This document shows positions 2,268 through 30,230 of a DNA stretch of 30,230 nt, piece by piece. Below the pieces are notes generated by a model, which worked only from the letters and a program-made list of their open reading frames with translations, ran no database searches and was not told where the DNA came from. How positions within the stretch are numbered: position 1 is the first letter of the stretch; each line of letters begins with the position of its first letter. The DNA is from a virus: IMG/VR virus record IMGVR_UViG_3300034093_001897, positions 1 through 30,230 of that record. One strand, given 5' to 3'. The translations under genes were made by a program, and so were the position numbers.

Positions 2268-2280
2268 TTTACCTTGATAC

Positions 2281-2901: not shown

Positions 2902-2905
2902 ATGT

Positions 2906-2913: not shown

Positions 2914-2932
2914 CAGGCGTCATGAGTTACAT

Positions 2933-2940: not shown

Positions 2941-2944
2941 CTGA

Positions 2945-3697: not shown

Positions 3698-3701
3698 CAC
3701 T

Positions 3702-4283: not shown

Positions 4284-4287
4284 TTGC

Positions 4288-5493: not shown

Positions 5494-6400
5494 AAATAAT
5501 TGGTATCAATGGAAATACGGCAATGATGCTTTATTTGGGAGACAAATTGAAAATAAAGAGCTTAAAACCATTTACACTAAAATGGATAGACCATTATTAT
5601 CGTTCAAAGAAGAATTAATCGAAGCAGCCAAAAGCACTATAGATCATTATCCAGGATTAAGACCTTGCATATTTTTTAGTGGTGGAGTAGATAGCGAAAT
5701 AATACTACGTTCCTACCTAGCAATTGGCTCAAACCCTAAGGTTTATGTTGTTAGGTACGAAAATGATCTAAACATTTATGATGTAAGTTATGCCGTTACC
5801 GTATGTTCTATTCTTAATATTGATTATACAATAGTAGACTTTAACTTAAAAAAGTTTTATGAAAACGATGCAGTAAAAGTATCAGAAGATGCACAAATAG
5901 ATAGACCTAGAATGCTACCCCATCTTAAATTTACAGACTGTGCCGATGGGTTAATTATTGTAGGGCATAGTGATGTAAGATGGTATCGTACAGATGATGA
6001 CTATAGTAAAAAGGGTACTTGGTTGATGCAAGATTTTGAACACGATTTAGGATGTGACAAATACAACATTCTACATAATCGTCCTGCAATTTATCAATGG
6101 TTTAAGTGGTCACCTGGATTGGTTTTAGGGTATACTACGTTAACCTGGTTTAAAAAATTAGTAAACGACGAATACCGTGGACGATTAGGCATCAATTCTA
6201 CAAAAATACTAGGCTTTCGAGAAATGTATCCCGATATTATCGAACGCAAGAAACAGACAGGATTTGAAAAAATTGATGATCTAGTTGCTGAAGTTCAACT
6301 TGTATTGAAAAATAAGTACAATGGTTTGCCCTACAGGCAACAAATAGATAGAACTATAACTCAACTTTATAATGAAATTAAAGGCCCAATTAATAAGTAA
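5480..6400 (+). CDS. asparagine-synthetase-like PP-loop ATPase 1
   Basis: The 306-residue protein contains the ATP pyrophosphatase PP-loop SGGVDSE at 67-73, preceded by a beta strand (PCIFF) and followed by a helix, and a YVVRYE strand after it. Later IIVGHSD resembles the second part of the nucleotide site in the asparagine synthetase C-terminal domain. There is no N-terminal glutaminase domain, so ammonia or another amine would be the nucleophile, or a partner supplies it. Known relatives include WbpG-type sugar amidotransferases and amide-forming enzymes of natural-product pathways. Its start overlaps the end of the hydroxylase-type gene by 14 nt. Substrate unknown. Confidence 0.7.
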   Translation: MYTSENNWYQWKYGNDALFGRQIENKELKTIYTKMDRPLLSFKEELIEAAKSTIDHYPGLRPCIFFSGGVDSEIILRSYLAIGSNPKVYVVRYENDLNIYDVSYAVTVCSILNIDYTIVDFNLKKFYENDAVKVSEDAQIDRPRMLPHLKFTDCADGLIIVGHSDVRWYRTDDDYSKKGTWLMQDFEHDLGCDKYNILHNRPAIYQWFKWSPGLVLGYTTLTWFKKLVNDEYRGRLGINSTKILGFREMYPDIIERKKQTGFEKIDDLVAEVQLVLKNKYNGLPYRQQIDRTITQLYNEIKGPINK

Positions 6401-6491
6401 CTGTGGGTTTTACAAAGTAGCGGATAAAACTTGTAATAACGAAATTTATGAATCAACTTGTATTAATTCTCCTATAGTAAGAAATTTTTAA
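6372..6491 (+). CDS. possible 39-residue cysteine-containing microprotein or gene remnant
   Basis: ATG 6372 opens a 39-codon frame that overlaps the end of the PP-loop gene in another frame and continues through the intergenic gap to a stop at 6489-6491. It contains NCGFYKVADKTC and YESTC, so three cysteines. There is no ribosome site. It may be the remnant of another gene's 3' end or simply an open gap. Low confidence. Confidence 0.2.
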   Translation: MKLKAQLISNCGFYKVADKTCNNEIYESTCINSPIVRNF

Positions 6492-6507
6492 ACATGTGTC
6501 TTTGATA

Positions 6508-6526
6508 TGTAAATACTACCTATACT
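6508..6526 (+). promoter_or_regulatory. candidate promoter before the cupin gene
   Basis: TGTAAATA at 6508-6515 is a one-mismatch late-type octamer and TATACT at 6521-6526 a sigma70-type -10 box; no good -35 box is at the right distance. An AGAGG ribosome site lies before ATG 6542. Either element could drive the cupin gene. Confidence 0.3.
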
Positions 6527-6541
6527 ACAGAGGCAGTCACG

Positions 6542-7174
6542 ATGAAATTTCAAAAAATAACAGACGAGTTAACAATTTATGATAGGACTATTTTAAAAAT
6601 AAAAGTAATAGATACTCATTACACATCTGAATTAAAAAATCATTCAACATTTATTATTGGAAATAATTGTAAGATGGTATCGGCATCTTATCAAATTAAC
6701 GGAAAATTTGGCGCCTGCGTAAATGAAAATATTGTATTAGATGGGAGTGCATTGATTATTGAAACTCCCGGATACAAATTTCAAGAGCAACAATTGGTAA
6801 CATTTGATCCTACTATTCAGGGTCAATTAAGTTATATAGATGGTTGCTCAAATACCAATATTATTAATCCGTTGCGTAACGGAGATCCCTGTATAAATTA
6901 TTTGTTTTTTCCTAACGATATAAAGCAAACATTTCACACACATCCTAGTATTCGAATAGGCGTAATATTAGAAGGTAGGGGATTTGCTGAAATTGACAAA
7001 GAAGTAGTTGAATTATCCAAAGGTGATCGATTTATTTTAGACAGACACGCTAGACATAGATTTTTTACAACAGACTCTTTTATGAGTTTAGCTGTTTTTC
7101 ATCCAGATAGTGAAGACGGTCCAAAAGATGAAGCTAACCCTATGAAAACTAGAACATATATAAATAATCAATAA
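6542..7174 (+). CDS. cupin-domain protein
   Basis: The 210-residue protein has a C-terminal cupin barrel at about 118-180. Metal-ligand candidates are H132-T-H134 in TFHTHPSIRIG, E150 in GRGFAEID, and H169 or H172 in DRHARHRF, matching the two conserved cupin motifs. The N-terminal 110 residues are mostly beta strands and are not recognised. Bacterial cupins of this type act as isomerases, dioxygenases or sensors for sugars and small acids. The gene has a Shine-Dalgarno-like AGAGG, lies between two PP-loop blocks and is 12 nt ahead of the next gene. The role could be tailoring of the same compound that the PP-loop enzymes act on, but this is only contextual. Confidence 0.65.
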   Translation: MKFQKITDELTIYDRTILKIKVIDTHYTSELKNHSTFIIGNNCKMVSASYQINGKFGACVNENIVLDGSALIIETPGYKFQEQQLVTFDPTIQGQLSYIDGCSNTNIINPLRNGDPCINYLFFPNDIKQTFHTHPSIRIGVILEGRGFAEIDKEVVELSKGDRFILDRHARHRFFTTDSFMSLAVFHPDSEDGPKDEANPMKTRTYINNQ

Positions 7175-7186
7175 TTGGAGATAACA

Positions 7187-7492
7187 ATGATTAAAATTAA
7201 AAGAGAATATACAAGACCTTCTGCAGATATTCCTTGGCACGGGGATGTCTTACCAGCCGTCGAATTTAAGACCAAATTACAAACTTATATTGATTCAAGT
7301 AAACACATTTCGTATAATATCACATATAGCGAAGATGGATTGAAAATGTTTTATGAAGGAGTTTGGGTTGATCGTGCGGCTTTTGACGAATACGATGTTG
7401 ACCCGGACCTTGTCCCGTACTGGGATTTAAGAAACGAATACTACTCTTCTGTTGGTATTACTATAGGTCCTAAAATTTTTGAAGATATTTAA
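7187..7492 (+). CDS. uncharacterised phage protein
   Basis: The 101-residue protein starts at ATG 7187, preceded by GGAG at a good distance; an upstream in-frame TTG at 7175 would overlap the ribosome site. The product is acidic and rich in aromatic residues (for example IPWHGDVLP and VPYWDLRNEYY). I do not recognise a family. It follows the cupin gene by 12 nt and is probably co-transcribed. A strong intrinsic terminator follows at 7533-7564, and the gene ends within 4 nt of the convergent PP-loop gene's stop. Confidence 0.6.
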   Translation: MIKIKREYTRPSADIPWHGDVLPAVEFKTKLQTYIDSSKHISYNITYSEDGLKMFYEGVWVDRAAFDEYDVDPDLVPYWDLRNEYYSSVGITIGPKIFEDI

Positions 7493-8367
7493 TATATTAA
7501 GTTTTTAGGAACTAATACAACATCTCCTATATAGGGGTCCCAATTCGCGGACCCCTTATTTTTTAATAGAGTTATTATGGTATCTGCTAATTTCATATTT
7601 TCAAAATTTAAAGTTTTAAGAGGAGATACAAAATTCATCTTTACTAAATCTGCCAGCAATATACTCTTAGGATCATAAAAAAACTTACCATTAGTTCTCA
7701 ACTTATTGCTGTTTAAAATATGATACCACGAATCAAAAATCCTGCTATAAAAATTCATTTCGCCAGATTTTTTATAAAAATTTAAAGATTGCTGATAAGC
7801 TATTTCAGTTAGATGCATAGGTATGTAAAACACACTAGAATCGTAATTGGTAATTTTTCTATTAAAGATAGTTAGGTATTTGTTTACACTATCTTTTTCT
7901 AGATCACCCTCTCCTACAATTATATAAAAATCACTTGGAATTAATTTTAAAATATATGGGACTGTAGAGTACGTGGGCCAACATACTTCAGTAATTTTAA
8001 AATTTTCATGTATTATTGATTTTAGAATATCATCAATGGAAAATTCATAAATGTTTAATTTAACACCATATTTCTTAGCAATATCCTCAACTATTATTTT
8101 TGTAGAATCATTAATTCCGTTAATATGAAAGAAAAAATATTCTACCGGAATGTCGTTTAGGTGTATGTAATGTGCAATTAATTCACTGTCAATTCCAGAA
8201 AGGCACAGACCAATTTTATCAAGTCCTAAACCTGTCATCTCTTGTTTGATATCTTTTACAGTTTTATCAACTGCATCAAAGAACGTATCTGTAGTTACTT
8301 TATCAAAATTATCTATTTGGTATGTGAACTTTTTTGTATTTTTATCAAATGTATAAATTCTATTCAT
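7489..8367 (-). CDS. asparagine-synthetase-like PP-loop protein 2 with a shortened loop
   Basis: The product has 292 residues from ATG 8367, which overlaps the upstream gene's stop by 8 nt (ATGAATAG). A longer frame start at 8409 would overlap much more. The PP-loop position reads CLSGIDSEL (SGIDS at 57-61), one glycine shorter than the SGGxDS consensus seen in the other two PP-loop proteins here. Strands EYFFFHI and FYIIVGEG match the fold that follows. The changed loop may reduce ATP pyrophosphatase activity, leaving a structural partner for PP-loop 3. The 3' end of the gene contains the terminator of the opposite strand. Confidence 0.55.
   Translation of the reverse strand: MNRIYTFDKNTKKFTYQIDNFDKVTTDTFFDAVDKTVKDIKQEMTGLGLDKIGLCLSGIDSELIAHYIHLNDIPVEYFFFHINGINDSTKIIVEDIAKKYGVKLNIYEFSIDDILKSIIHENFKITEVCWPTYSTVPYILKLIPSDFYIIVGEGDLEKDSVNKYLTIFNRKITNYDSSVFYIPMHLTEIAYQQSLNFYKKSGEMNFYSRIFDSWYHILNSNKLRTNGKFFYDPKSILLADLVKMNFVSPLKTLNFENMKLADTIITLLKNKGSANWDPYIGDVVLVPKNLIY
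7533..7564 (+). terminator. intrinsic terminator for the plus-strand cupin block
   Basis: AGGGGTCC (7533-7540) pairs perfectly with GGACCCCT (7549-7556) around an 8-nt loop, followed by a T-rich tail TATTTTTT (7557-7564). It acts on plus-strand transcripts; the reverse strand has no T-tract after the stem. It lies inside the coding region of the convergent minus-strand gene. Confidence 0.8.
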
Positions 8368-9478
8368 GTTTAAAATTTGTAATGTGATTTGTATCATCAA
8401 ATACATCACTAAGATCTATAGATTGTGTTACACTTTGATCAGCAGTGATTGCGTTAAATCTTGGACGTAGATATAATATATTTTTTAAACTTGGTCTTTT
8501 TACTTTTTGCAAATATTCATTAGACCCTAATACGCTACACACAAACTTTTTTGCAGAAATCTTATATGTATTCCATGATCCTAGATGTTTAGACTCTTGA
8601 TTGTTCATACTCCATAATTGAAAATTTGTGGTATCAAAAAATGGAAAATATCGATCATCTAACCAAGCAGTATTAATATTGTTTGTTACGTTGCTAAACA
8701 AAAATAATCGATAATAAACATATATCCATTTCCATGTAAAATTATACCACCAAAACAGATCCCAAACTTGATTATTATGATTCGGGCACGTTTTTAGATT
8801 TTCAATAAACAATGATGTCCACATTTTTGCTGATCTTGATGATATTTTTTTAGAGTCCATAAAAAACTTTACCATTGTATCAAAATTAATTGTCTTGTTT
8901 AATGAACCGGGACCACCCCACAGTTCATAACTTTGTTGAATATCTGCACCAAATAATTGATCATTTAGTTCGCCGATAACGTAAATCCAATTACCTATGT
9001 CCTTATCACTATAAGAAAAATCACTATTTTCAACTTTGAAATGTGGTCTTATAAATTTATACCACATTTCTGGATTTTCATCGACACTGTTTTGATTCAT
9101 TTTTATAGTAATTCTTTTTGAGGCTTGTTCTACTCCTAGAAGTTTGATAAACGAGGATACAATCACACTCGAATCAATTCCTCCACTATACATAATTTGT
9201 ATTGGAATATCGAGATCTTCTTGTTGTTTTAATATTTGTGCAGCACGTTCTATTACACATTCTTCATATGTAATACTTGAATTTTTAAATTCTGGTAGCC
9301 TAAATTTATCAGGAACGTATGTTCGTATAGGAAATCTAAATGTATTGGTTCTATCATTGATGCCTATACAACGATCCTGAATAATGCTATAAAAGTCTAA
9401 CCATTCTTTAAATTTGGGATCAGCAATTAATTGAGCATTAAGAATATCAGCTTGATATGCTATCAACGATTGTGTCAT
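8360..9478 (-). CDS. asparagine-synthetase-like PP-loop ATPase 3
   Basis: The 372-residue protein carries a canonical PP-loop YSGGIDSS at 97-104 and GELNDQLFGA, the second conserved element of asparagine synthetase C-terminal domains that binds ATP and the acidic substrate. The N-terminal ~90 residues lack a catalytic Cys-2 and do not form a glutaminase domain. Trp-rich segments at about 220-250 are unusual. It overlaps the upstream gene by 4 nt and the downstream PP-loop 2 gene by 8 nt, so the three form one minus-strand operon. This is the most convincing asparagine-synthetase-like protein of the three and could form an amide bond, using ammonia or an amine. Confidence 0.78.
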   Translation of the reverse strand: MTQSLIAYQADILNAQLIADPKFKEWLDFYSIIQDRCIGINDRTNTFRFPIRTYVPDKFRLPEFKNSSITYEECVIERAAQILKQQEDLDIPIQIMYSGGIDSSVIVSSFIKLLGVEQASKRITIKMNQNSVDENPEMWYKFIRPHFKVENSDFSYSDKDIGNWIYVIGELNDQLFGADIQQSYELWGGPGSLNKTINFDTMVKFFMDSKKISSRSAKMWTSLFIENLKTCPNHNNQVWDLFWWYNFTWKWIYVYYRLFLFSNVTNNINTAWLDDRYFPFFDTTNFQLWSMNNQESKHLGSWNTYKISAKKFVCSVLGSNEYLQKVKRPSLKNILYLRPRFNAITADQSVTQSIDLSDVFDDTNHITNFKHE

Positions 9479-10062
9479 ACAACAGCCATCCTACTAATAA
9501 TTTTGTTTTCTATAATATCTAATTTACTAATATCATTTTCCAAAATAATCACTTCCATAAAATAATCAATGGTAGATTGTAATTTTATTAATATATGATT
9601 AAACGAGTCAGATTTAATTTTTAATTCTTTCAATGCTTCTTCTTTTGTTAAGCCTCTACCGCTTACATAGTCATCTAATAATTTTTCGTTTTTTGATTCT
9701 AACATATCATTTATTAAGTAGGCTACGGCTGGATTAAAGAAAAAATTACAAGTTGATAGTGATTTTGCAGTAACAAAGAATAGTACTTTAACAATTTTTC
9801 GTTTTTTTAATGCTAACAATTTTTTAAGTTTTATGTACTCAGGAACTTCGGTATCTAACTTTAACTCTATGCCTTGTTTAGAAATGCACAGGCAATTATC
9901 TTCAATATTTTTGTCGGTAATATTTTTGTAAAAGTCATAGTGTGGATAAAGTGCTATAATGTCTACATCAAATAAAGAAGACTTTAAACTTGTAGATAAT
10001 CTAGTATCTTCCACATACGTAAGTATTACACGGGTCGCAGCATCGACTATAATATATTTCAT
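9475..10062 (-). CDS. uncharacterised protein in the PP-loop operon
   Basis: The 195-residue protein is unrecognised. It starts MKYIIVDAATRVILTYVED, has a lysine-rich segment (KLKKLLALKKRKIVK) at about 78-92, and then VLFFVTAKSLSTCNFFFNPAVAYLI. The C-terminal half is helical and charged with a possible coiled coil (KIISR near the end). Its stop overlaps the start of the PP-loop 3 gene by 4 nt, giving translational coupling. It could be an accessory or substrate-presenting subunit, but no motif shows this. Confidence 0.55.
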   Translation of the reverse strand: MKYIIVDAATRVILTYVEDTRLSTSLKSSLFDVDIIALYPHYDFYKNITDKNIEDNCLCISKQGIELKLDTEVPEYIKLKKLLALKKRKIVKVLFFVTAKSLSTCNFFFNPAVAYLINDMLESKNEKLLDDYVSGRGLTKEEALKELKIKSDSFNHILIKLQSTIDYFMEVIILENDISKLDIIENKIISRMAVV

Positions 10063-14063: not shown

Positions 14064-14723
14064 ATGAAAACCGCAATTGTGATACCCGCGAGACTTGCAA
14101 GCACTCGCTTTCCAAATAAAATGCTATGTGATGTCGGTGGACAAACTCTTATTCGTAGAGTCTACGAACAATGCTTATCCACGGGGCTCGATGTATATGT
14201 TGCAACGGACAGCAAAGACATTGCCGCTGAAGTATCAAATGCTCTACTGGTATATGATTCTGAAAACGGTACAGCTCGTATTGCCAAAGCCATAGATCAA
14301 ATGCCTCATTATGATGCCATAATCAATGTGCAGGGTGACATGGTAACAGTGCCTGTAGAAGATGTAAAGAAATTGCCATTGCTGCTCAATATCTACGATG
14401 TTGCCACATTAAAACATCCCATGGCAGATGGTCAACGACACGATCCTAACACTGTTAAAGTGATTTCGTCGGGCACCGAAGCACACTGGTTCTGTCGTGC
14501 TCCTTTAAAATACGGTGATTGGCATTACGGTATCTACGCTTACAGAATGGATGCTCTTAAAAAATACCAAACACTGACTGTCTATCCCGAAGAAAACATT
14601 GAAAGTCTGGAACAATTACGTTGGATACAAAATGGTTACACTATTGGTATCATCGACGCAGGAATCGCTGCTGAAATCAATACTCCGGAAGATTTAGAAT
14701 TGTTCAAAAAAGAATCTTATTGA
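14064..14723 (+). CDS. kdsB: CMP-Kdo synthetase (3-deoxy-manno-octulosonate cytidylyltransferase)
   Basis: The 219-residue protein starts with the nucleotidyltransferase signature IPARLASTRFPNKML. INVQGD at about 92-97 is the metal/CTP site, ESLEQLRWIQNG and INTPEDLE near the end are KdsB hallmarks, and WHYGIYAYR matches the Kdo-binding region. It would activate Kdo with CTP for lipopolysaccharide core synthesis. It is shorter than typical bacterial enzymes of about 250 residues, and the segment corresponding to the ATR-H-SGTDR region is reduced to SENGTARIA. With kdsA at 20256 it gives two of the Kdo pathway steps. Its stop overlaps the -35 box of the promoter at 14720-14748. Confidence 0.9.
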   Translation: MKTAIVIPARLASTRFPNKMLCDVGGQTLIRRVYEQCLSTGLDVYVATDSKDIAAEVSNALLVYDSENGTARIAKAIDQMPHYDAIINVQGDMVTVPVEDVKKLPLLLNIYDVATLKHPMADGQRHDPNTVKVISSGTEAHWFCRAPLKYGDWHYGIYAYRMDALKKYQTLTVYPEENIESLEQLRWIQNGYTIGIIDAGIAAEINTPEDLELFKKESY

Positions 14724-19552: not shown

Positions 19553-20059
19553 ATGGCAAATCTACAACCCGTACTTTATAAGTACACTTCGACAAAAGAA
19601 TATCACGATGCATTTCCCTGTGCTTACAGGCAATGGAGAAGTGATAGTCACTGTAATCTAATTCACGGCTATTCATTTAGCATGAAATTTTACTTTGGCA
19701 CCAACGACCTAGACGTCCGCAATTGGGCGGCTGACTATGGTGGTTTGAAAGAACTTAAAAAGACACTGGAAGATCAATTTGATCATACACTAATTGTTGC
19801 ACAAGACGATCCATGTCTTGCTACATTTAAAATGTTGCAAGAAAAGAATATGGCTAAGATTGTTATCCTGCCGGCACTAGGCTGTGAAGCACTAAGCGAC
19901 ATGCTTTACAAATACGTGAATGGTGTTTACATTCCAGAAATGTGGGGTCCTGGTGAAGCAGCTAGGCTTTGGTGTTATCGTGTAGAAGTACGTGAGACAC
20001 AGAGCAATATGGCTTTCCGTGAAGGTCATCGAGAATGGAATGAGGATCTGTTTGCGTGA
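19553..20059 (+). CDS. queD: 6-pyruvoyl-tetrahydropterin synthase / 6-carboxytetrahydropterin synthase (QueD-like)
   Basis: The 168-residue protein aligns by motif to QueD/PTPS: catalytic Cys34 in HCNLIHGYSF, D77-H78 in FDHTLIV, DYGGLKELK for the conserved D-x-x-L-K, and VEVRET for the C-terminal glutamate. Of the three zinc histidines of E. coli QueD only one is retained (H38 of HGY). The second histidine of HGH is Tyr40, and the EAAHRL histidine aligns with Tyr25 in FPCAYRQW. QueD makes the 7-deazaguanine precursor CPH4, used for queuosine or deazaguanine DNA modification in some phages; no queE, queC or dpdA gene is in this window. It has a strong AAGGAG site and overlaps the next gene by 4 nt. 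Confidence 0.8.
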   Translation: MANLQPVLYKYTSTKEYHDAFPCAYRQWRSDSHCNLIHGYSFSMKFYFGTNDLDVRNWAADYGGLKELKKTLEDQFDHTLIVAQDDPCLATFKMLQEKNMAKIVILPALGCEALSDMLYKYVNGVYIPEMWGPGEAARLWCYRVEVRETQSNMAFREGHREWNEDLFA

Positions 20060-20247
20060 ACTCGCTTGAACGTATATGGGCCCGGGCGACCGGGCACCTA
20101 ATGGGTCAAACAGATGAGGATAGACCAGATGTGCCCATCCTTTCTCTACGCGAAGCTCGAATTGCTCTATTCTTTAAAACATTCTGGGTAATTATTCATG
20201 TTATAACCTGTCTGTTTATTATTGCCAACACCATTAGACATTGGTAA
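20056..20247 (+). CDS. small membrane protein
   Basis: The 63-residue protein starts at GTG 20056 and overlaps queD by 4 nt (GTGA). The first 35 residues are hydrophilic ([19 protein letters not shown]); residues ~38-58 ([20 protein letters not shown]) form one transmembrane helix. Its stop codon lies inside the late-type octamer for kdsA. Function unknown; a holin-type role is not supported by position or a second helix. Confidence 0.6.
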
Positions 20248-20250
20248 ATA
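20243..20250 (+). promoter_or_regulatory. late-type octamer GGTAAATA, 5 nt before kdsA
   Basis: GGTAAATA, one mismatch to NATAAATA, is followed by ATTAT and ATG 20256 with no Shine-Dalgarno. It overlaps the stop codon of the preceding gene. Confidence 0.45.
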
Positions 20251-20255
20251 ATTAT

Positions 20256-21089
20256 ATGCGTACATTTAACATTCATAATATAAAATTAGGAAACAACGAG
20301 CCGTTGGTATTGATTGCCGGGCCTTGTCAAATTGAAAGTCTAGACCATACACTCGAAACTGCACATAGCATAAAAGAAACCTGCGATAGTTTAGGAATTA
20401 AATTTATCTATAAAAGCAGCTTTGACAAAGCCAATCGATCTAGCATATCAACTCAACGAGGTATTGGAATTGACGAAGGTTTAAAAATTCTCAATACCGT
20501 TAAACATCAGTTAGGAGTGCCAGTTTTAACTGACATTCACGAAAGCTATCAGGCAGAACTGTGTGCTACAGCTGGCATTGATGTACTACAGATCCCAGCA
20601 TTTCTCTGTAGACAGACTGACCTATTGTTGGCAGCAGGTGCTACAGGCTGTGCCATCAATGTCAAGAAGGGGCAGTTCCTTGCACCTCACGATATGAAGA
20701 ACGTTGCGACAAAGATTGCTTCAACTGGCAATGACCGCATCATGTTATGCGAAAGAGGATACACTCATGGATATAATAATCTTGTTGTTGATATGCGTAG
20801 TCTACCCATTATGGCAAGCACCGGGTATCCAGTGGTCTTTGATGCCACACATAGTGTTCAGCAACCAGGGGGATTGGGCTCAGTCTCCGGAGGGGATCGT
20901 ACTATGGTCCCGTACCTCGCGAGGGCAGCAGTGGCCACCGGATGCGTAAGTGCAGTGTTTATGGAATGTCATGAAGATCCAGACAATGCCCCTAGCGATG
21001 GTCCCAATATGATAATGTTGTCTAATCTTAAAAACGTGTTAGAAAGTCTTATAAAAATAGATGGAATTGTTAAATCCTCCTCAAACTAA
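20256..21089 (+). CDS. kdsA: Kdo-8-phosphate synthase
   Basis: The product has 277 residues from ATG 20256 (MRTFNIHN); an upstream in-frame start at 20241 overlaps the previous stop and octamer. Signatures are [81 protein letters not shown] and [13 protein letters not shown]. Cys24 in GPC indicates the metal-dependent class rather than the E. coli type, which has Asn there. It condenses arabinose-5-phosphate with phosphoenolpyruvate to give Kdo-8-phosphate. The phosphatase and arabinose-5-phosphate isomerase are not in the window. The downstream glycosyltransferase start overlaps its end by 29 nt. Confidence 0.95.
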
Positions 21090-22197: not shown

Positions 22198-22567
22198 TCG
22201 TATCCTAGAAACTTTTAACCGCTGGAATGTACCTAAAGAGTTTGCCGAGCCAATGTACAATTATCTTGTTCATGGGTTTAGTCCGGGCGGATGTTTTACC
22301 GCGGTGCTAGCCAATGACTTTCACCGTGCTATACGTAGCAGTCATCCTGGCAACACTGTCGAAGCATTTAAGGCTCTGTCTGGTTGGATAGATGAATGCA
22401 TACCTCCCGAAACAAAAGGTAACTATAATAATGTTGAAGTTTGGTGCAGTCTACCTGCAGATGTTCGTAGATCAATATTAGAAGACTGCGAAATAATCTA
22501 TACTGAGCAACAAGAAATTATGATGGCTCTGCAAAGTAAACCCACAGTTGAACCTGTCTTTTTTTAA
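22172..22567 (+). CDS. conserved phage protein of unknown function
   Basis: The 131-residue protein starts at ATG 22172 within the last 26 nt of the preceding gene. The sequence has NRILETFNRWNVPKEFAEPM and YNYLVHGFSPGGCFTAVLAN, then EAFKALSGWIDECIPP, and ends in an acidic helix with ILEDCEIIYTEQQEIMM. I know similar proteins from T4-like phages but no assigned role. Its stop shares one base with the uvsE ATG, so the three genes are translationally coupled under the 21860 promoter. Confidence 0.65.
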   Translation: MKLTQYSRNRILETFNRWNVPKEFAEPMYNYLVHGFSPGGCFTAVLANDFHRAIRSSHPGNTVEAFKALSGWIDECIPPETKGNYNNVEVWCSLPADVRRSILEDCEIIYTEQQEIMMALQSKPTVEPVFF

Positions 22568-23613
22568 TGAAAGAAACTATGATTAAACGCATAGGCTTTG
22601 CCTGCAAATGGATCAATGATCCTGAAGAAGTCAACGGCATGAAGATCAATGCCAAAGACCGTGACTTAAATACTGGTGCTACTACAGTTAGGTGGTTGCG
22701 TGAACATCCCCAAGAAGCAGAACAGCGACTTTGGGACTTGATGAAACGAAATATTGATGCCTGCACCAAGTTGGTGGCCAGGGTAGGAACACTAGATGAA
22801 GATCTTAGAATGGTACGACTCAGCAGCGATATACTGCCTGTATACACTGAGCCTAGTTGGAAGTGGTTTTGGCGGCAGCCCGATGTTAGAGCCTATGCAG
22901 AAACAGCATTTAGAACAGTGGGAGATTTGGCTCGCCAGAACGGTGTTCGCCTGTCTTTCCACCCTGGTCAGTTTTGCGTGTTGGCATCTATCAACCCTGG
23001 TATTGTAGAACGAAGTATCGAAGAGTTTGAGTATCATGTGGACATGGCTCGCTGGATGGGCTATGGCAAGACGTTTCAAGACTTTAAGATCAATGTGCAT
23101 ATCTCGGGTAAGCAAGGTCCACAAGGTGTTCGTGATGCTCTAAGCAAAATGACACCCGAAGCCCGTAACTGTCTTACCATTGAGAATGACGAAATGACCT
23201 GGGGCATTGACTCTAGCATTGAGTTGGTCAAGGACTGTGCCCTGGTCATGGACATACATCATCATTGGATTAACTCTGGAGAATATATTGAAGCAACTGA
23301 CGACCGTGTTAAGCGGATTATTGATAGCTGGCGTGGCGTTCGCCCTGTTTTACATTATAGTGTTTCACGGGAAGACTGTCTTATTGACCATCCCGGACAT
23401 ATCCGTCCCAATCTTTCGACCCTCTTAGAGCAGGGCTACAAAAAACAAAAGCTCAGAGCACATTCAGAATTTTACTGGAATACAGCAGTAAATGAATGGG
23501 CACTGAGCTTTCGAGACTCGTTTGACATCATGTGCGAAAGCAAGGCTAAGAATCTATCCAGCTTTGCACTCTATGAACAAAGTCTTAAGCAGCCGGCTTT
23601 ACTTTTGGCTTAA
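22567..23613 (+). CDS. uvsE: UV damage endonuclease (UvdE/UvsE)
   Basis: The 348-residue protein matches UVDE: IGFACKWI at the start, RLSFHPGQFCVLAS at about 134-148, INVHISGKQGPQGV, LTIENDEMTWG, and ALVMDIHHHWIN, then VLHYSVSRE and the C-terminal RAHSEFYWN. These His, Glu and Asp residues line the TIM-barrel metal site. It nicks DNA 5' of UV photoproducts and other lesions. Length is in the family range. A second in-frame ATG at 22579 is a possible alternative start. Marine surface phages commonly carry such repair genes. Its 3' end overlaps the convergent Pro/Ala/Lys-rich gene by 29 nt. Confidence 0.93.
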   Translation: MKETMIKRIGFACKWINDPEEVNGMKINAKDRDLNTGATTVRWLREHPQEAEQRLWDLMKRNIDACTKLVARVGTLDEDLRMVRLSSDILPVYTEPSWKWFWRQPDVRAYAETAFRTVGDLARQNGVRLSFHPGQFCVLASINPGIVERSIEEFEYHVDMARWMGYGKTFQDFKINVHISGKQGPQGVRDALSKMTPEARNCLTIENDEMTWGIDSSIELVKDCALVMDIHHHWINSGEYIEATDDRVKRIIDSWRGVRPVLHYSVSREDCLIDHPGHIRPNLSTLLEQGYKKQKLRAHSEFYWNTAVNEWALSFRDSFDIMCESKAKNLSSFALYEQSLKQPALLLA

Positions 23614-23905
23614 GTGGTGCTTTTGGCTTAGGTGGTGCTTTTGACGTTGCAGTCTTTGGAGCAACAGGCTTTTTGGCAACCTGTGGCTTTTTAGGTGCAG
23701 GCTTTTTAGCAGGTGCTTGTTCAACCACAGCCGCTGGAACAACTGCTTCTGCCTCAACAACCACTGCTTCAACTACAGGCGCAGGTGCTGCCTCAACAAC
23801 CACTGCCTCAACTACAGGCGCAGGTGCTGCCTCAGCTTTATATGGGGCTTCCGCAGTTTGTTCTGCTGGCTTGGCGCCAAATAGTTTCTTTAATAAATCG
23901 ATCAT
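23585..23905 (-). CDS. Ala/Pro/Val/Lys-rich protein with H1-like tail
   Basis: The product has 106 residues from ATG 23905, chosen because AAGGAG precedes it; an upstream start at 23944 has none. MIDLLKKLFGAKPAEQ forms an amphipathic N-terminal helix. Two copies of a 13-residue unit (EAAPAPVVEAVVV) follow, then a Lys/Pro/Ala-rich tail (KKPAPKKPQVAKKPVAPK, KPKAPLKPKVKPAA) like histone H1 C-termini. It is probably disordered and may bind DNA through the basic end. It is convergent with uvsE and overlaps its last 29 nt. Confidence 0.7.
   Translation of the reverse strand: MIDLLKKLFGAKPAEQTAEAPYKAEAAPAPVVEAVVVEAAPAPVVEAVVVEAEAVVPAAVVEQAPAKKPAPKKPQVAKKPVAPKTATSKAPPKPKAPLKPKVKPAA
23755..23832. repeat. 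two tandem 39-nt repeats inside the Pro/Ala-rich gene
   Basis: Units 23755-23793 and 23794-23832 differ at one position (CTGCTTC versus CTGCCTC). They encode the 13-residue repeat EAAPAPVVEAVVV on the minus strand. Near the gene's 3' end, an 18-nt unit (GGCTTAAGTGGTGCTTTT) is also repeated in slightly altered form. Confidence 0.9.
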
Positions 23906-23933
23906 ACTAAATCTCCTTAGGAATTTATTTAGC

Positions 23934-23941
23934 GGTAAATA
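23934..23941 (+). promoter_or_regulatory. late-type octamer GGTAAATA, 5 nt before the SOD gene
   Basis: GGTAAATA, one mismatch to NATAAATA, is followed by CATAT and ATG 23947, with no Shine-Dalgarno. The divergent minus-strand gene in contrast has AAGGAG. Confidence 0.45.
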
Positions 23942-23946
23942 CATAT

Positions 23947-24513
23947 ATGGAATTTAAATTCATTCAAAAGTTTATAATCGAAGGCAAAAAAGACAAACTC
24001 ATACAGTTGACACTGCCCTACGACCCCGATGAGTTGGCGCCAATAAAATCCAAAGAAACTATAGATTATCACTACGGTACACTATATAAAGCCTATGTTG
24101 ATCGATACAACAAGGGCGAGGGTGATGACGATTTCAACGAAGCTGGTGCGTTTTTACACAATATCTATTTTGGTCAATTACAAAAACCAGAAGGTGCCAA
24201 TAGACCCTATGATGCTATTTTACAGTTTATAGAAAAACATTTTGATACATTTGATCGTTTCAAAGAAGAATTTGAAAAAACTGCTATGACAATACAAGGC
24301 AGCGGGTGGGCATACCTAGCTCGAGATGGCAAGATCAAAACCATTGCGAATCACGAAATTAGAAATGATATTGTGCTGTTAGTAGATTGGTGGGAACACG
24401 CTTGGGCTTTAGACTATCAGGCTGATAAAAAAAGCTATTTGAAAAACATATGGAAGCTAATAAACTGGAGAGTAATCAATGGCGTACTCGGACAAAGTAA
24501 TCGATCACTATGA
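23947..24513 (+). CDS. Fe/Mn-family superoxide dismutase
   Basis: The 188-residue protein has all four metal ligands: H42 (DYHYGTLYKAYV), H71 (AFLHNIYF), D147 and H151 (DWWEHAWALDY). Y50 corresponds to the catalytic Tyr34. The position of the common gateway His30 is Leu46, and the second-sphere position of MnSOD Gln146 is His136 in IANHEI, while the FeSOD Gln69 site is Gly67; a His there is known in some archaeal-type enzymes. Metal choice cannot be told from this. It converts superoxide to O2 and H2O2. Its stop lies 35 nt inside iscU, so the two are coupled. It follows a late-type octamer. Confidence 0.88.
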   Translation: MEFKFIQKFIIEGKKDKLIQLTLPYDPDELAPIKSKETIDYHYGTLYKAYVDRYNKGEGDDDFNEAGAFLHNIYFGQLQKPEGANRPYDAILQFIEKHFDTFDRFKEEFEKTAMTIQGSGWAYLARDGKIKTIANHEIRNDIVLLVDWWEHAWALDYQADKKSYLKNIWKLINWRVINGVLGQSNRSL

Positions 24514-24865
24514 AAACCCACGTAATGTAGGATCATTTGCTAAAGATGATCCCAACATAGGCACAGGTATGGTCGGTGCTCCGGCATGCGGAGATGTAAT
24601 GAAATTACAGATAAAGGTAGACAATGATACAGGTCTTATTACAGATGCAAAATTTAAAACGTATGGCTGCGGATCGGCTATCGCGAGTTCGAGCCTCATT
24701 ACAGAATGGGTCAAAGGAAAAACCCTCGACCAAGCCGGAGCAATTAAAAACTCCGAAATCGCCGAAGAACTAGCCCTACCTCCAGTAAAGATACACTGTA
24801 GTATTCTAGCAGAGGATGCAATCAAAGCAGCCGTAAATGATTACCGTAACCGACACAGCCTGTAA
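24479..24865 (+). CDS. iscU: Fe-S cluster scaffold protein IscU
   Basis: The 128-residue protein is close to bacterial IscU over its length. Cluster ligands are C37 (APACGDVMKL), C64 (YGCGSAIASSS) and C107 with H106 (KIHCSILAED), plus the Asp39 that tunes cluster release. The LPPVK motif (100-104), recognised by the HscA chaperone in bacteria, is intact, so a working link to a host Isc chaperone system is plausible. The start is secure because the N-terminus MAYSDKVIDHYENPRNVG matches the family; it overlaps the SOD gene by 35 nt. The next gene, iscA, overlaps its end by 29 nt. No IscS, HscA or HscB is in the window. Confidence 0.95.
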   Translation: MAYSDKVIDHYENPRNVGSFAKDDPNIGTGMVGAPACGDVMKLQIKVDNDTGLITDAKFKTYGCGSAIASSSLITEWVKGKTLDQAGAIKNSEIAEELALPPVKIHCSILAEDAIKAAVNDYRNRHSL

Positions 24866-25163
24866 AAGAATTAAGCAAACACTTGCCAAACGTGGCAAGG
24901 GTGCGGGTATTCGAATAGGTGTTAGAACTACAGGGTGTAGTGGGTTGGCCTACGTATTAGAATACGTAGATGACTACAAACCCGAAACTGGAGTAACTAA
25001 TTTTGCTCAAGATGGTTTTGTTGTTTTGGTAGATGCCAAAAGTCTAGTGTATCTAAAAGGGATAACTATGGATTGGGTTCGCAATGGGCTCAATGAGGGA
25101 TTTGACTTCGTCAATCCCAACGAACGTGATCGATGCGGTTGCGGTGAAAGTTTTAGAGTTTAG
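24837..25163 (+). CDS. iscA: A-type Fe-S carrier protein IscA
   Basis: The 108-residue protein has the three cysteines of A-type carriers: C34 in TTGCSGLAYVLE and C100-G-C102 in RCGCGESF. NEGFDFVNPN matches IscA closely. It accepts or delivers Fe-S clusters downstream of IscU. The ATG at 24837 lies in the iscU coding region (29-nt overlap); the start agrees with the family length. Order iscU-iscA is that of bacterial isc operons, without iscS or iscR. The 3' end overlaps the convergent zinc-ribbon gene by 11 nt. Confidence 0.93.
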   Translation: MITVTDTACKRIKQTLAKRGKGAGIRIGVRTTGCSGLAYVLEYVDDYKPETGVTNFAQDGFVVLVDAKSLVYLKGITMDWVRNGLNEGFDFVNPNERDRCGCGESFRV

Positions 25164-25440
25164 AAATATCTAGATCAGCGTCAGCGGGCATATCCCAGAT
25201 TTTCTTGTGATCTACTCCTGTTCGCTGCGCAAATCTCTTGATATCGCACCCAGAACAACAATGAAAGTAGTTGTTATTCAACCGTTTTCTATCTATATTT
25301 TTTAGATCTCTTTCAAACACTGCATCACAGTCATCACACTTTAAAGTCACAACGGTTTTTGTCCTGGTATAACTGTGTTGATTGCCCAGTTTACTGAACC
25401 TAACATATTGATTTTTCTGCGATCTGGTCTGTATGAACAT
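25153..25440 (-). CDS. small zinc-ribbon protein
   Basis: The 95-residue protein has C35-D-D-C38 and H60-C61-C62-S-G-C65, a likely zinc site, separated by a basic helix (ERDLKNIDRKRL). The N-terminus is basic (RSQKNQYVRFSKLGNQ) and the C-terminus acidic. It may bind DNA or RNA or be a small HNH-like relative; no catalytic His-Asn-His can be assigned. It is convergent with iscA, and a late-type octamer TGTAAATA lies 4 nt before its ATG on the minus strand. Confidence 0.6.
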   Translation of the reverse strand: MFIQTRSQKNQYVRFSKLGNQHSYTRTKTVVTLKCDDCDAVFERDLKNIDRKRLNNNYFHCCSGCDIKRFAQRTGVDHKKIWDMPADADLDISKL

Positions 25441-25510: not shown

Positions 25511-28500
25511 ATGGCAAGAAAAATTATTAATATTGGTGCAATTGGCAACGACGGCACCGGCGACAGTATCAGAGACAGTTTTAGATCTGTCAACGACAAC
25601 TTTAGAGAACTCTATAGTTCACTAGGACTAGGTGAAAAACTCACATTCATAGGTCTAGATGATACACCCGAATCATTTCCTAACGATTATGAAAATGCGT
25701 TGGTTGTGATCAATGATACCACAGACGGCGTGGTTTTCAAAAAACTAGAAGCTGGCGTAGGTGTTCAAATTGATTTTGATACCAGTCAAAATTCCATTGT
25801 GGTCAACAGCTTGTTTTCAGATATTTCAGGCGATCCTAATCCAAATCTAGGAGGACCAGTTAATGCTCAAAGTGGTGGAGTAAGATATCCTATTGGAAAT
25901 TTACCCGATATAGGATCTTTTTCTGAACTCACTGATTCAATTGGCAGAATAAACACAATTCACGGATCCACTGCCACAGAAACAAACAGACTGGCGGCCA
26001 ATAAGGGCTATGTAGATTCCAAGATATCCCTGCAGGGCATAGATGCTGTTGATCCTGCTACCAATACAACCAACACTGCATTTGGTACCATGACCGGGCC
26101 GTTGATACTTTCAAGAGACCCTGTGGATGATGATGATGTGGCCTACAATGGTTTGATAGCTGCCACCAAACGATATGTTGACAGTTCCGGTTATAGCAGC
26201 ACAGTGAATCTGTATGTGAGTACAGCCGGGTTAGATGATCGACCAGGTGTTGGATTAGACCGACAAGGTCGCAGTTTGGCCTATGCATATAAGACACTAG
26301 AAGCTGCTCTTAAACGTGCAGAAGAATTGGTGCTGGAAGCACCGTTAGAAATTGGCCCTTACAAGAAAGTTCTTACTTGGAACAACGGTGATGAGCCTTG
26401 TACTCTAGTAGAAATTGACGATACCAGTGCTACCGCAGGCACTGGTTTCAGTCCTGCATTTATTTTTATGAATGTGGACACAGTTGAAATTGTCAGCGGT
26501 GGCCTAAATTATCTACCCGGTGACATACTTACTGTGGCCACTGGTACCGGTACAGCAGCAAGATATCAGGTGCTGTCGGTTAGTCCTGGCGGCTCAGGAG
26601 GACGAGGACCAGTTACTGCCATTAGACAGATCACTGGCGGCAACTACAGCGTGTTGCCCGCACCAGTGGCTCCAGCAGCCACTACCTGTCCCGGCAGCAG
26701 TGTTGGTGTTAGAACTGGATGCACACTAAATCTCACATTCAAAGTGGCCAGAGTGCAGGTTAACTCGGGAGGCCGTGGAACTGGATACGGTTTAGTGTCA
26801 GTGAGATTTGTTGGTGGTGGTGGTGGTGGAGCCTTTGGTGTAGCAGATGTTAGCGCAGTTGACGGCGGCATAAACAGCATCAGTATCACCAACGGAGGAA
26901 CAGGGTTTACTTCGCAGCCATCTATACTTGTGAGTCTTCCAAGATTTAGATTGTTTACCAGCGGTTACAGAACAGACTTTACTGGAAATCCTGCATTGAG
27001 CACAGTGGCTGCTAACGCAGCCAAAGACATACGAGAAGGACTATATCTTCGTGGGGAAACGTCTGGAGCTCTTGCACAGATTCTAGCACACGACGGTACT
27101 TTGGACACGTCCGGCAATGAAGAATTTGATGTTGATGTTGTCAGTGGTGAATTTGTTGTTGGCGAGGTTATTTCATTCGGTGATGTAACCAAACGTATTC
27201 AAATTTCTGTATTTGTTGAAACTGGCATTTACCTAGAAAATTTACCATTACGTGTGCCTCAAAACGTGGCAGTAATAGGTGATGAATTTCGTAGAACTAT
27301 TATTAGACCACAGATAGGCTTTGACAGTTCCAGTCCCTGGGCATTTTTGAATTTTAGACGAGATCCTGTGGTAGACGGACTGACTGTGGCAAATGAACTG
27401 TATGGTTATCACTATCTAGCAGATTCCACACAGCCTGTTTATCCCCTGATCAATAACAAAGGTAACTATACCAGTGCTGCACGACTGATCACATTGAATA
27501 GAAAGTTTATTCAAGATCAGGTCATAGGTTGGATCAATAATCAAATTTTAACAAACACTGCACCATTTACATCTGCATTTGACTACAATGAAGATATCTG
27601 TTATAGAGACGTTGGCTTGATCATAGACTCTATGGTATTTGATTTGAAATGGAGTGGACAGAATCGCACAATTTCTGCTGCATTGAAATACAAGGGACCA
27701 GCAGTTCCGGGCAGTAATCCTGCACTAGCTATTGGTGCGCAACTGAGTCAGACTGTGGCCGGTATTCAACGTATCAACACCTTGGCCCAAGACATTATCG
27801 ACAATGTGAGTATTGCGGCACTGTATACATTGTCCGGTACTGTGGCCACTACTGCCACAGTACCAACACTACAGACTCTAGACGAAGGTCTAGTGGCAGA
27901 AGTAGGATCCGATACTGTGATCACATTGTTGACCAATGCCATAGTTGATGTTATCAGCAACAGTGGAACAGTAAACTATCCCAAAGACAACGGCGATATG
28001 GACATGTTCTTGTGTAACGATGCTGTAATCCTAAGAGCCATGACCTTCCAGGGTCAAGGTGGATTTGCAATGGTATTAGATCCAGAGGGACAAATCCTTG
28101 CTAAATCTCCGTACTGTCAAGAATCTGCATCCTTTAGTAGAAGTATAAATGCCAAGGCATTTTCTGGTGGTATGTTTGTAGATGGATTCACCGGCAATCA
28201 GAAATTTGTCATAGACAGCAAAGACAGTAATATATTTTTACGAGTATCGGGACTGCTGAGACCGCCTAATACTCCCTGCAGCTTTATTGTCAGTGGTGAA
28301 ATTTACAGAATAAACTACATTAGAGGGTATACATTTGGAACAGGTGCTGCTACTGCTACCACAGGTGGATTCAGCACAGCTCAGTTCATCTTGGATGAGC
28401 TGACACCTTACACACCTGCTGCTGGATCACGTGCCTGTACATTTAGTACTCCAAATATAACCACTGCATCTGTTCACGAACTACAACCAGGTGCCATTGT

Positions 28501-30230
28501 GAAATTCAGTTCTACTGGAACACTGCCAACTGGTATCGCTGCCAATCAAGAATACTATGTGTTACTGGCTGGATTTACGCTTACTCAATTCAGAGTTGCC
28601 GCAGTAGCTGGCAGTACCACAGCAGTGACTTTTGTAGGTGCCGGCTCGGGTACACACAGTTTTATCAGAGTGTTTGAAGTTCTTATGCCCGGTAATCGTT
28701 CCATGCTTAGTAACGACTTTACCCAGGTCTGTGATCTAGGCTACGGACTTATAACCACCAACGGCGGATTGGCCGAAGCTGTGAGTATGTTTACCTACTA
28801 CTGTCAAATTTCCTACTATTCATTGAACGGTGGACAGATTAGAAGCGTGGGTGGATCTAGTGCTCACGGAAACTTTGCATTGGTAGCGGAAGCCAGTGAT
28901 CCATTAGAAGTTCCGACTCCCACAGGATTTTACACCGATCTTGCACAGACCGCAACTGTTTATGCTGCATCAGTTGATACGTTGAACGAAAAGGGAGAAA
29001 ATATATTATATGTGACCTATGATGATTTCTTTCCTTTGCCGAACAGTGAATTAGAAATCAATCATGGAGGCCAAATTGTACGATATGTTGTCACTACGGC
29101 ACAGATCAGCGATGTTGCCACCAAACGTGCAAAATTAAATATCAGCACCGGCGGCGGACTTTTGGCAGCAGTGCCCCATGGACAACGTGTTACAATTAGA
29201 AACAACAGTTTCCATGTGTTACACGGAGACATTGTAGAGGTAGCAACTAGACCTAGTACTGCTCTGATACTAAATGACAGTAATTTTGTCTACAGACAAT
29301 TGGAATTCACAGACTATGATTCCACATATGATCTAGAAACCTATACTATCACAGGTATAAACTATGGCACTGGGGTGATAACCACTGATATCAATCATAG
29401 ACAACGTGCAGGATATCAAGTGAGATTTGTCAAACCTCCAGGCGCAGTGTTGCCCAATGAGATTACTGCAGGTGTCACAGTTGACGACGGTGTCATATAC
29501 TATGTCAAGACTGCACCAACTCCTACCACATTTACCATTTCTGCTACAGAAACAGGCTCAGGCATAACCACATTTACTGGATCGGCGGTGTCGGGAAGTC
29601 CCACAATGGTTCCTTACGGTCTAGCCCTGGCACAAGGTAGAGAAAATTATGATTATATAGAAATCACTGTGTATGAGCCGGGTGTAGAAACAGGTGCGGC
29701 CAATACTGTAACCAGTATAAGCACTGCGGCCAATACGTTTACCAAAAACAGTCACGGACTCACAGCTGGTCAACCTGTGAGATTCAGTGCCAGTGTGTTG
29801 CCTGGAGGACTAACTGCAAACACAGTGTACTTTGTAACCACTTCTGGACTAACTGCCAATGATTTCAGTGTTAGTACCAGAGCGTTAGTAGACAGTACAT
29901 TTATAGGTGTGCCTACTTCTTTGGCATTTTCAGTGGGGCCATCCCTGGGAACATCTACTGGCGCTGGTCCTTATTTTACAACCATTTCAAATATCATCTG
30001 TTTGGAAAATCTTATATTGGGATCAAGTTTGGTAGCAAAGCCAAATATTACCGGTGTTAGCGCAGTAGGTGACGGTGTTACCTGCACATTGACGTTTACC
30101 GCTCAAAACGTTCCTCCATATTTGCCATTCCAGTTGATTACTGTGAGCGCATTTGCTGTAGGTGGTGTGCCATTCAATGGCGCACAAACCGTGGTGACCT
30201 GTACCAATACCACTGTGACATTTGCCAGCG
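25511..30230 (+). CDS. giant tail fibre / baseplate-type structural protein, 3' end beyond the window
   Basis: The frame from ATG 25511 stays open to the right edge (more than 1,570 codons; I checked the frame in several places and saw no stop). The N-terminus, ARKIINIGAIGNDGTGDSIR followed by DSFRSVNDNFRELY, is the start seen in large marine T4-like virion proteins. After it come a YVDS-containing linker region, Gly-rich stretches (about 410-470) and long beta-rich domains. Three related beta modules are visible: around translated 28,441-28,680, 29,341-29,610 and 29,701-29,940, each with an H-L/x-x-G-x-V-x-F core, then LP-x-G/E-I/L-x-A and a YYV/YFV strand. It is probably a host-contacting fibre or baseplate protein. 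Confidence 0.85.
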   Translation, partial: MARKIINIGAIGNDGTGDSIRDSFRSVNDNFRELYSSLGLGEKLTFIGLDDTPESFPNDYENALVVINDTTDGVVFKKLEAGVGVQIDFDTSQNSIVVNSLFSDISGDPNPNLGGPVNAQSGGVRYPIGNLPDIGSFSELTDSIGRINTIHGSTATETNRLAANKGYVDSKISLQGIDAVDPATNTTNTAFGTMTGPLILSRDPVDDDDVAYNGLIAATKRYVDSSGYSSTVNLYVSTAGLDDRPGVGLDRQGRSLAYAYKTLEAALKRAEELVLEAPLEIGPYKKVLTWNNGDEPCTLVEIDDTSATAGTGFSPAFIFMNVDTVEIVSGGLNYLPGDILTVATGTGTAARYQVLSVSPGGSGGRGPVTAIRQITGGNYSVLPAPVAPAATTCPGSSVGVRTGCTLNLTFKVARVQVNSGGRGTGYGLVSVRFVGGGGGGAFGVADVSAVDGGINSISITNGGTGFTSQPSILVSLPRFRLFTSGYRTDFTGNPALSTVAANAAKDIREGLYLRGETSGALAQILAHDGTLDTSGNEEFDVDVVSGEFVVGEVISFGDVTKRIQISVFVETGIYLENLPLRVPQNVAVIGDEFRRTIIRPQIGFDSSSPWAFLNFRRDPVVDGLTVANELYGYHYLADSTQPVYPLINNKGNYTSAARLITLNRKFIQDQVIGWINNQILTNTAPFTSAFDYNEDICYRDVGLIIDSMVFDLKWSGQNRTISAALKYKGPAVPGSNPALAIGAQLSQTVAGIQRINTLAQDIIDNVSIAALYTLSGTVATTATVPTLQTLDEGLVAEVGSDTVITLLTNAIVDVISNSGTVNYPKDNGDMDMFLCNDAVILRAMTFQGQGGFAMVLDPEGQILAKSPYCQESASFSRSINAKAFSGGMFVDGFTGNQKFVIDSKDSNIFLRVSGLLRPPNTPCSFIVSGEIYRINYIRGYTFGTGAATATTGGFSTAQFILDELTPYTPAAGSRACTFSTPNITTASVHELQPGAIVKFSSTGTLPTGIAANQEYYVLLAGFTLTQFRVAAVAGSTTAVTFVGAGSGTHSFIRVFEVLMPGNRSMLSNDFTQVCDLGYGLITTNGGLAEAVSMFTYYCQISYYSLNGGQIRSVGGSSAHGNFALVAEASDPLEVPTPTGFYTDLAQTATVYAASVDTLNEKGENILYVTYDDFFPLPNSELEINHGGQIVRYVVTTAQISDVATKRAKLNISTGGGLLAAVPHGQRVTIRNNSFHVLHGDIVEVATRPSTALILNDSNFVYRQLEFTDYDSTYDLETYTITGINYGTGVITTDINHRQRAGYQVRFVKPPGAVLPNEITAGVTVDDGVIYYVKTAPTPTTFTISATETGSGITTFTGSAVSGSPTMVPYGLALAQGRENYDYIEITVYEPGVETGAANTVTSISTAANTFTKNSHGLTAGQPVRFSASVLPGGLTANTVYFVTTSGLTANDFSVSTRALVDSTFIGVPTSLAFSVGPSLGTSTGAGPYFTTISNIICLENLILGSSLVAKPNITGVSAVGDGVTCTLTFTAQNVPPYLPFQLITVSAFAVGGVPFNGAQTVVTCTNTTVTFAS

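Follow-up and report, generated by a model that had tools for sequence, protein, structure and literature searches.

Genes of Fe-S cluster assembly have been found on phages before. T4-like environmental genomes were described as carrying an A-type carrier and/or IscU together with further Fe-S genes, one of them having a carrier and 12 radical-SAM genes (PMC5332604, available in part), and IscU and/or A-type carriers were also recorded on marine phages, including HMO-2011-type and OM43 phages (PMC5332604, PMC9038755, PMC10580990, all available in part). An Fe/Mn superoxide dismutase (SOD) and nifU were listed among Microcystis virus genes in the accessible portion of another report (PMC12542629). 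No coupling of the published IscU or carrier genes to an SOD is mentioned in the available portions of the first three of these papers (PMC5332604, PMC9038755, PMC10580990), whereas the locus described here is a fixed, overlapping unit of three genes, sod, iscU and iscA. IscU/IscA and SODs have each been known from phages on their own, and the coupled unit appears to be new as far as the open-licence literature extends, in which no report of such a unit or of a compact phage SOD was found. So far, IscU and IscA of phages have been catalogued as auxiliary metabolic genes of no evident purpose, and their repeated pairing with a phage-type SOD suggests that what they counter is the loss of Fe-S clusters to oxidation.

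The locus lies in a window (the whole stretch of DNA that was analysed) of 30,230 bases, which is the IMG/VR virus record IMGVR_UViG_3300034093_001897. The three open reading frames (ORFs) are all encoded on the + strand and overlap one another, at 24479-24513 (35 nt) for sod and iscU and at 24837-24865 (29 nt) for iscU and iscA (Table 1). Both overlaps had been noted in a preliminary description of this DNA, which took the genes for a translation-coupled unit of SOD and Fe-S assembly on a phage. The overlap lengths were confirmed from the ORF coordinates, and the unit is real; judging from the ORFs and the conservation of the overlaps, its translation is probably coupled. The presence of a UvdE-like gene upstream and of a gp10-like baseplate/fibre gene downstream identifies the window as part of a T4-like phage. 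The gene order UvdE-SOD-IscU-IscA-Cys-rich ORF-gp10 recurs in relatives, and the small Cys-rich protein is 52-92% identical in the syntenic loci (identical loci excepted). The Ala/Pro/Lys-rich ORF, listed as 23585-23944 on the - strand, is also kept in several relatives; its second Met is the likely start (23905), preceded by a AAATCTCC block (GGAGATTT on the - strand) that is kept in most aligned relatives.

Table 1. Features of the sod-iscU-iscA locus and its neighbours in the window
Feature	Position	Strand	Description
UvdE-like UV endonuclease	22567-23613	+	Upstream syntenic neighbour; NCBIfam uvde match below cut-off
Ala/Pro/Lys-rich ORF	23585-23905	-	Divergent from sod, with a short intergenic region in common
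Conserved CGGTAAATAC block	23933-23946	+	Directly ahead of sod; may be a late promoter like those of T4 or a start signal
sod	23947-24513	+	188 aa; compact phage-type Fe/Mn superoxide dismutase
iscU	24479-24865	+	128 aa; Fe-S scaffold with LPPVK motif; start within sod
iscA	24837-25163	+	108 aa; A-type Fe-S carrier; start within iscU
Small Cys-rich protein	25153-25440	-	Convergent with iscA; DUF7836 match weak, below cut-off
gp10-like baseplate/tail-fibre gene	25511-30229	+	Downstream syntenic neighbour; open at the window end

Relatives of this IscU are very common in viral contigs, where at least 599 encoding stretches were found. Among the best 80 viral IscU loci, many of which are on short contigs, 26 presented the order SOD-IscU-IscA, 41 presented IscU-IscA and 13 presented IscU alone within the stretch examined. 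Starting from the SOD, IscU was found in 76 and all three genes in 73 of the nearest 80 viral loci. The SOD-IscU overlap measured 26 nt in 66 of these 76 loci and 35 nt, as in the window, in the other 10, and the IscU-IscA overlap was 29 nt in 66 of the 73 viral loci measured. Since the overlaps are conserved across viral loci, they are not due to chance, and the loci counted share descent, so that the counts do not represent independent events. In four loci (L028, L029, L034 and L041), tandem IscA-like genes followed iscU, one being 54-86% and the other 32-34% identical to the window IscA.

IscU, IscA and their partners in the host

The window IscU matched the Pfam family NifU_N (1.7e-54, above the gathering score), passed the NCBIfam equivalog model TIGR01999 iscU (222.1 against a cut-off of 192.4 bits) and was similar to a NifU-like protein of solved structure (PDB 1q48, E 1.5e-66); PHROG 8429 has already been named NifU-like Fe-S assembly protein. 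The preliminary description had attributed to this protein all cluster ligands and the LPPVK chaperone motif, and the alignments bore this out. The five positions C, D, C, H and C, which we take to be the cluster ligands, were retained in every one of 154 rows, 74 of them viral and 80 bacterial, and LPPVK, presumably the HscA-binding motif, was kept in 81 of 81 viral rows, the window counted, and in 80 of 80 bacterial ones. The elements CGD, GC, HC and PPVK were present in all 139 viral IscU rows. The window IscA matched Pfam Fe-S_biosyn (1.5e-16, above the gathering score) and PDB 1r94, protein yfhF (E 3.3e-36); it passed the subfamily model TIGR00049 (105 against 58.8) and fell narrowly below the cut-off of the IscA equivalog TIGR02011 (144.8 against 150.6). 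Its GCxG and CGC motifs, assumed here to hold the three carrier cysteines of IscA, were also found in 183 of 183 usable viral rows, which derive from 208 viral loci that overlap between searches.

In the bacterial isc operon, iscU is followed by iscA, as observed in 79 of 80 bacterial loci, and the phage has the same order, with an IscU that passes the IscU equivalog model. The phage pair therefore looks like an excerpt of the isc operon, in which the median bacterial iscU-iscA gap of 19 nt has been tightened to an overlap of 29 nt and a phage SOD has been placed in front. The phage also differs from a complete Isc system in the desulfurase. None of 14 related viral contigs, which range from 83 to 303 kb and are possibly fragments, as the window is of an incomplete genome, had a match to PF00266 (Aminotran_5, the cysteine desulfurase family) above cut-off; the single match below cut-off scored 15.7 bits (G161). 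In the absence of an Aminotran_5 protein over cut-off in these contigs, the sulfur would come from the host IscS, which agrees with the earlier proposal that the desulfurase is provided by the host. A full-length HSP70 (DnaK-like) match was present in two of the same 14 contigs, G003 (126272-128071) and G161 (two copies, 22905-24698 and 35161-36954), and none was found in G001, the relative with the window type of SOD.

The reading that we prefer, to which a probability of about 60% is given, is that the three genes make up a coupled phage unit by which the Fe-S enzymes of an infected aerobic cell are provided with clusters and protected from damage. Dehydratases lose their [4Fe-4S] clusters to superoxide, with release of iron, and the phage SOD would lower the superoxide level. 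The host cysteine desulfurase IscS would deliver sulfur to the phage IscU, on which clusters would be built and then transferred through the phage IscA to client enzymes, with host chaperones acting through LPPVK, a motif that would permit the use of the host HscA. With this reading we infer enzyme activity, a coupling of translation by the ribosome, the use of host IscS and chaperones, and clients in the window phage. In this way, some phages would seem to supply their own means of keeping iron enzymes functional while they infect the cell.

The first alternative, which we regard as improbable, is that the unit serves the control of the host: in competition with the host scaffold, the additional IscU and IscA would engage IscS and chaperones and would re-set, in the phage's favour, the cluster level to which IscR responds, along with the host isc/suf programme or iron use. 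Such a role would be in keeping with an IscU that is very host-like (81-87% identical to the best-80 bacterial loci), retains its ligands and LPPVK and, no desulfurase-family match having passed the cut-off, must plug into the host Isc system if it works. However, host control explains neither the SOD, nor the pairing of SODs with A-type carriers alone in other phages, nor the intact carrier cysteines throughout the usable viral IscA rows.

The phage superoxide dismutase and its pairing with carriers

The first protein of the unit is an SOD by domain and by fold. Matches to Sod_Fe_C (4.6e-24) and Sod_Fe_N (1.2e-8) were both above the Pfam gathering scores, and the four metal ligands (H42, H71, D147 and H151) were invariant in a 22-row alignment, together with the C-terminal water-site His (H136). 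The equivalent of Tyr34 (Y50) and the E-H pair were also invariant in the SOD rows. It had been claimed beforehand that the metal ligands are complete in all three proteins, and this stands for the ligands of the SOD as well as for those of IscU and IscA; at the second sphere of the SOD, however, His30 is replaced by Leu, and the alpha-hairpin is shortened. From 162 viral SOD loci, 108 gave sequence, and these yielded 59 distinct rows, of which 57 are of the window kind and the others are SODs of the PA5oct type and of Vibrio phage. The position of the second-sphere His30 of E. coli SodB was Leu in 59 of 59 viral rows and His in 32 of 32 bacterial rows, the latter drawn from 31 loci of Pseudomonadota together with one E. 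coli sequence entered by hand, so that the comparison covers this phylum. The first metal His is kept in the viral rows, and the first two metal His are 29-30 residues apart in all 59 of them, against 47-52 in all 32 bacterial rows, with the reservation that the 59-row alignment is off by one around the second His (H71 being invariant in the separate 22-row alignment). The N-terminal helical hairpin is shortened by about 17 residues relative to the rows from Pseudomonadota. The HXXXHH motif has lost both later His in the viral SODs, where it reads HXXXLY or HXXXLA.

An AlphaFold model of the window SOD, made from 18 aligned rows, reached a pLDDT of 83.9 and a pTM of 0.82, residues 1-14 and 185-188 being unsure. 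The structures that aligned best with it were Fe/Mn SODs with Z about 22 (1gv3, Z 22.9, rmsd 2.0 over 177 residues), and two uncultured-phage proteins named SOD in BFVD also matched well. The protein is therefore predicted to have a whole, normal SOD fold. It lies outside the NCBIfam equivalogs for named bacterial and archaeal SODs, since none of the three models that matched passed its cut-off (best 80 against 348 bits).

The loss of His30 and the unusual spacing of the first two metal His, constant as they are in the viral rows, could also indicate that the protein is no dismutase and instead assists the carrier, either without catalytic activity or in the handling of iron. This is unlikely, given the invariant metal ligands, Tyr34 equivalent, water-site His and E-H pair and a model with the full SOD fold at Z about 22; moreover, solved human Mn-SOD variants changed at His30 are among the structure matches, as judged from their titles.

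In the SodFM classification, the nearest signatures are those of SodFM3 and SodFM4, with which the phage SOD has in common the four metal ligands, the C-terminal His and the whole fold (definitions from the accessible portion of PMC10172142). SodFM4 is there characterized by the C-terminal water-coordinating His and by the loss of the last His of HXXXHH; both features are seen in the phage SOD, but one further His is lost (PMC10172142, same portion). The words 'virus' and 'phage' are absent from the main text of that paper (PMC10172142). The compact phage SOD appears to be a so far undescribed branch within a metalloenzyme family that has been studied well. SODs of the same compact type, 37-42% identical, are present in Pseudomonas phages of the PA5oct group (Wroclawvirus) and in Vibrio phage 2.275.O, where the neighbours are genes for ClpS or a ClpS-like protein, a small heat shock protein, RpsU and a topoisomerase, with no Fe-S assembly gene annotated within 6 kb.

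The association of SOD with Fe-S assembly genes extends beyond the layout of the window. An SOD was found in 9 of 36 virus records, and in each of the nine no more than 4 kb separated it from a gene for IscU or IscA. The module itself was the route to most of these records; a capsid gene was the route to G139, and the SOD-IscA pairs of G155 and G163 are distant from the genes by which those two records were reached. For the window type of SOD, IscU or IscA was downstream in 79 of the best 80 loci. An A-type carrier was downstream of the G155-type SOD in 73 of the best 80 loci, within 50 nt in 56 of them, and downstream of the G139-type SOD in 38 of the best 80, within 50 nt in 17. No carrier was seen within the stretch examined in 7 of 80 G155-type and 42 of 80 G139-type loci, 8 of these 42 having less than 1.5 kb of downstream DNA. 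The carriers of G155, G163 and G139 are only 31-34% identical to the window IscA. The recurrence of viral SODs next to Fe-S assembly genes in such further layouts is new here, and the most striking of these layouts is the direct succession of an SOD and an IscA-like carrier. The pairing is thus recurrent, and it is not universal, since the PA5oct-type and Vibrio phage SODs have no annotated Fe-S gene nearby. Both G163 (L612, L613) and G155 (L610, L611) carry an IscU + IscA locus and a separate SOD-IscA locus on one contig.

Upstream motif and origin of the genes

The sequence GGTAAATA, which we assume to resemble T4 late promoters, lies 13 nt before the sod start and recurs in 11 of the 12 upstream regions that were aligned. 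More generally, 6 of the 9 [TG][AG]TAAATA sites in the window and 23 of the 51 in G001 preceded a gene start by no more than 80 nt; an even spread predicts 4-5%, a figure given without correction for the base make-up of intergenic DNA. Exact late promoters of the form TATAAATA numbered two in the window, below the four expected by chance. A promoter-like role of the [TG][AG]TAAATA sites is suggested by their positions, and the module would be expressed late. In the window, G001, G003 and G004, these sites cluster ahead of gene starts, at distances of 9-16 nt or a few tens of nt; if they are promoters, some of the closest would give nearly leaderless transcripts.

A late promoter-like signal, together with the synteny that places the gp10-like baseplate/fibre gene directly downstream, could be taken to mean that a structural protein of the virion, carrying Fe-S clusters or iron, depends on the module for its maturation. 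We hold such a role to be quite unlikely, as IscU and IscA are located elsewhere in other phages of the group (e.g. G003 and G155).

Concerning the origin of the genes, IscU had been thought to be a fairly recent gain from a bacterium on account of its close resemblance to bacterial IscU. The comparisons spoke against this. In a tree with 83 cellular rows, 64 of 73 thinned viral IscU rows, the window among them, formed one phage-only group, with modest support (80/88) and an unsettled bootstrap; the thinning had reduced the viral rows from 139 to 73, the best-80 bacterial loci from 80 to 54 and the other Pseudomonadota from 30 to 29. The nine viral rows placed elsewhere in the tree suggest that IscU probably entered phages more than once. 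The best 80 cellular loci, mostly Burkholderiales, were 81-87% identical to the window IscU, with 85% for Rhodoferax and Acidovorax; since Vibrio hannami also reached 83%, such identity is not a sign of recent transfer. The similarity of IscU makes Burkholderiales a mere guess at the host. The third-position GC content (GC3) of iscU was 0.38 in the window, close to the viral median of 0.37, against a median of 0.79 in the best-80, mostly Burkholderiales, loci. The window IscA was at most 71% (median 61%) identical to the IscA of the same loci, and the window SOD at most 42% identical in 120 Pseudomonadota genomes, 91 of which had a match. Recent gain from a bacterium was rejected on the strength of the tree, the GC3, the Vibrio hannami identity and the divergent SOD and IscA. 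Deep phage-only clades with lost ligands had been named as what would speak against the original proposal; a phage-only group was found, and loss of ligands was not. That the three genes are recently acquired bacterial passengers of little use to the phage, as the 81-87% identity of IscU might suggest, is highly improbable in view of the phage-only group, the phage-like GC3, the very divergent SOD and IscA and the conserved overlaps.

Matches in Acinetobacter phage MD-2021a, Salmonella phage S.Kent and Listeria phage LM resemble bacterial DNA in phage records and were set aside, and the SOD of the freshwater record MW462191 was left out of the comparisons as well. A few IscU and SOD rows showed internal stops. 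Likewise, CAKLQH020000011.1, CAKLQF020000009.1 and similar records are labelled as phage and resemble pieces of bacterial chromosome, which can mislead searches for phage iscU or sodB.

Candidate client enzymes

The arrays of radical-SAM genes in relatives provide concrete candidates for clients. Radical-SAM matches numbered 19 in G001, 13 in G004, 12 in G006 and 10 in G008, and none was found in the window or in G009 (57.7 kb, identical at the genes compared), both of which are fragments. G001, a contig of 281,658 bases whose SOD and IscU are 90% and 93% identical to those of the window, has 13 ORFs with the radical-SAM motif between an mtd-like gene and thyX, an interval of less than 1 kb in the window.

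A tight link between IscU and the number of radical-SAM genes was rejected. Among 23 contigs chosen through the capsid gene, 17 had radical-SAM matches, 8 an A-type carrier over cut-off, 1 an SOD and 6 an IscU, one of these being divergent and one cut by the contig end. Radical-SAM counts with and without IscU did not differ significantly in this set (one-sided p 0.073 overall, 0.26 for contigs of at least 100 kb and 0.16 per length), and the 23 contigs chosen through the module, which tend to be shorter, also had radical-SAM matches in 17 (8 of 10 and 9 of 13). G138 has 16 radical-SAM matches, and no assembly gene was found in it. With counts not significantly higher in the presence of IscU and equal shares of 17/23, radical-SAM enzymes are no more than plausible clients.

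The part of the SOD in such a scheme is a separate matter. Two radical-SAM enzymes that have been tested withstood superoxide far better than the dehydratase fumarase did, and such enzymes stay functional in E. coli devoid of SOD (PMC9576991, available in part). This resistance weakens the idea of the SOD as a direct guard of radical-SAM clusters; on the evidence of these two enzymes, it is more likely that the SOD guards dehydratases and the iron pool, while IscU and IscA would rebuild clusters.

A broader proposal, which we put forward tentatively and consider less probable than its converse, is that large T4-like water phages possess a phage-specific compact SOD subfamily, marked by the short hairpin and by Leu for His30, that is a dedicated partner of A-type carriers and, with or without IscU, would constitute a superoxide-proof line for the assembly and delivery of clusters to host enzymes and to phage radical-SAM enzymes.

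It had also been supposed that the module protects the oxygenases and desaturases of an island in the window, and the case for this proved weak. No oxygenase was named by a Pfam or PHROG match among the other island ORFs scanned, and the two desaturases and the fatty-acid hydroxylase-like protein presumably belong to non-haem diiron families and are not Fe-S enzymes. This island, at 1-10062, is AT-rich (28-37% GC) and encodes, besides the two fatty-acid desaturases and the hydroxylase-like protein, a cupin, an acetyltransferase-like ORF and a weak QueC-like match. The large arrays of radical-SAM-motif genes in G001 lie at 144697-151774 and 230176-262544 (L343, L347-L349), one of them being the array between the mtd-like gene and thyX. 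Elsewhere in the window, a QueD/PTPS-like gene was found at 19553-20059, and enzymes of KDO sugar synthesis are encoded at 14064-14723 (KdsB-like) and 20241-21089 (KdsA).
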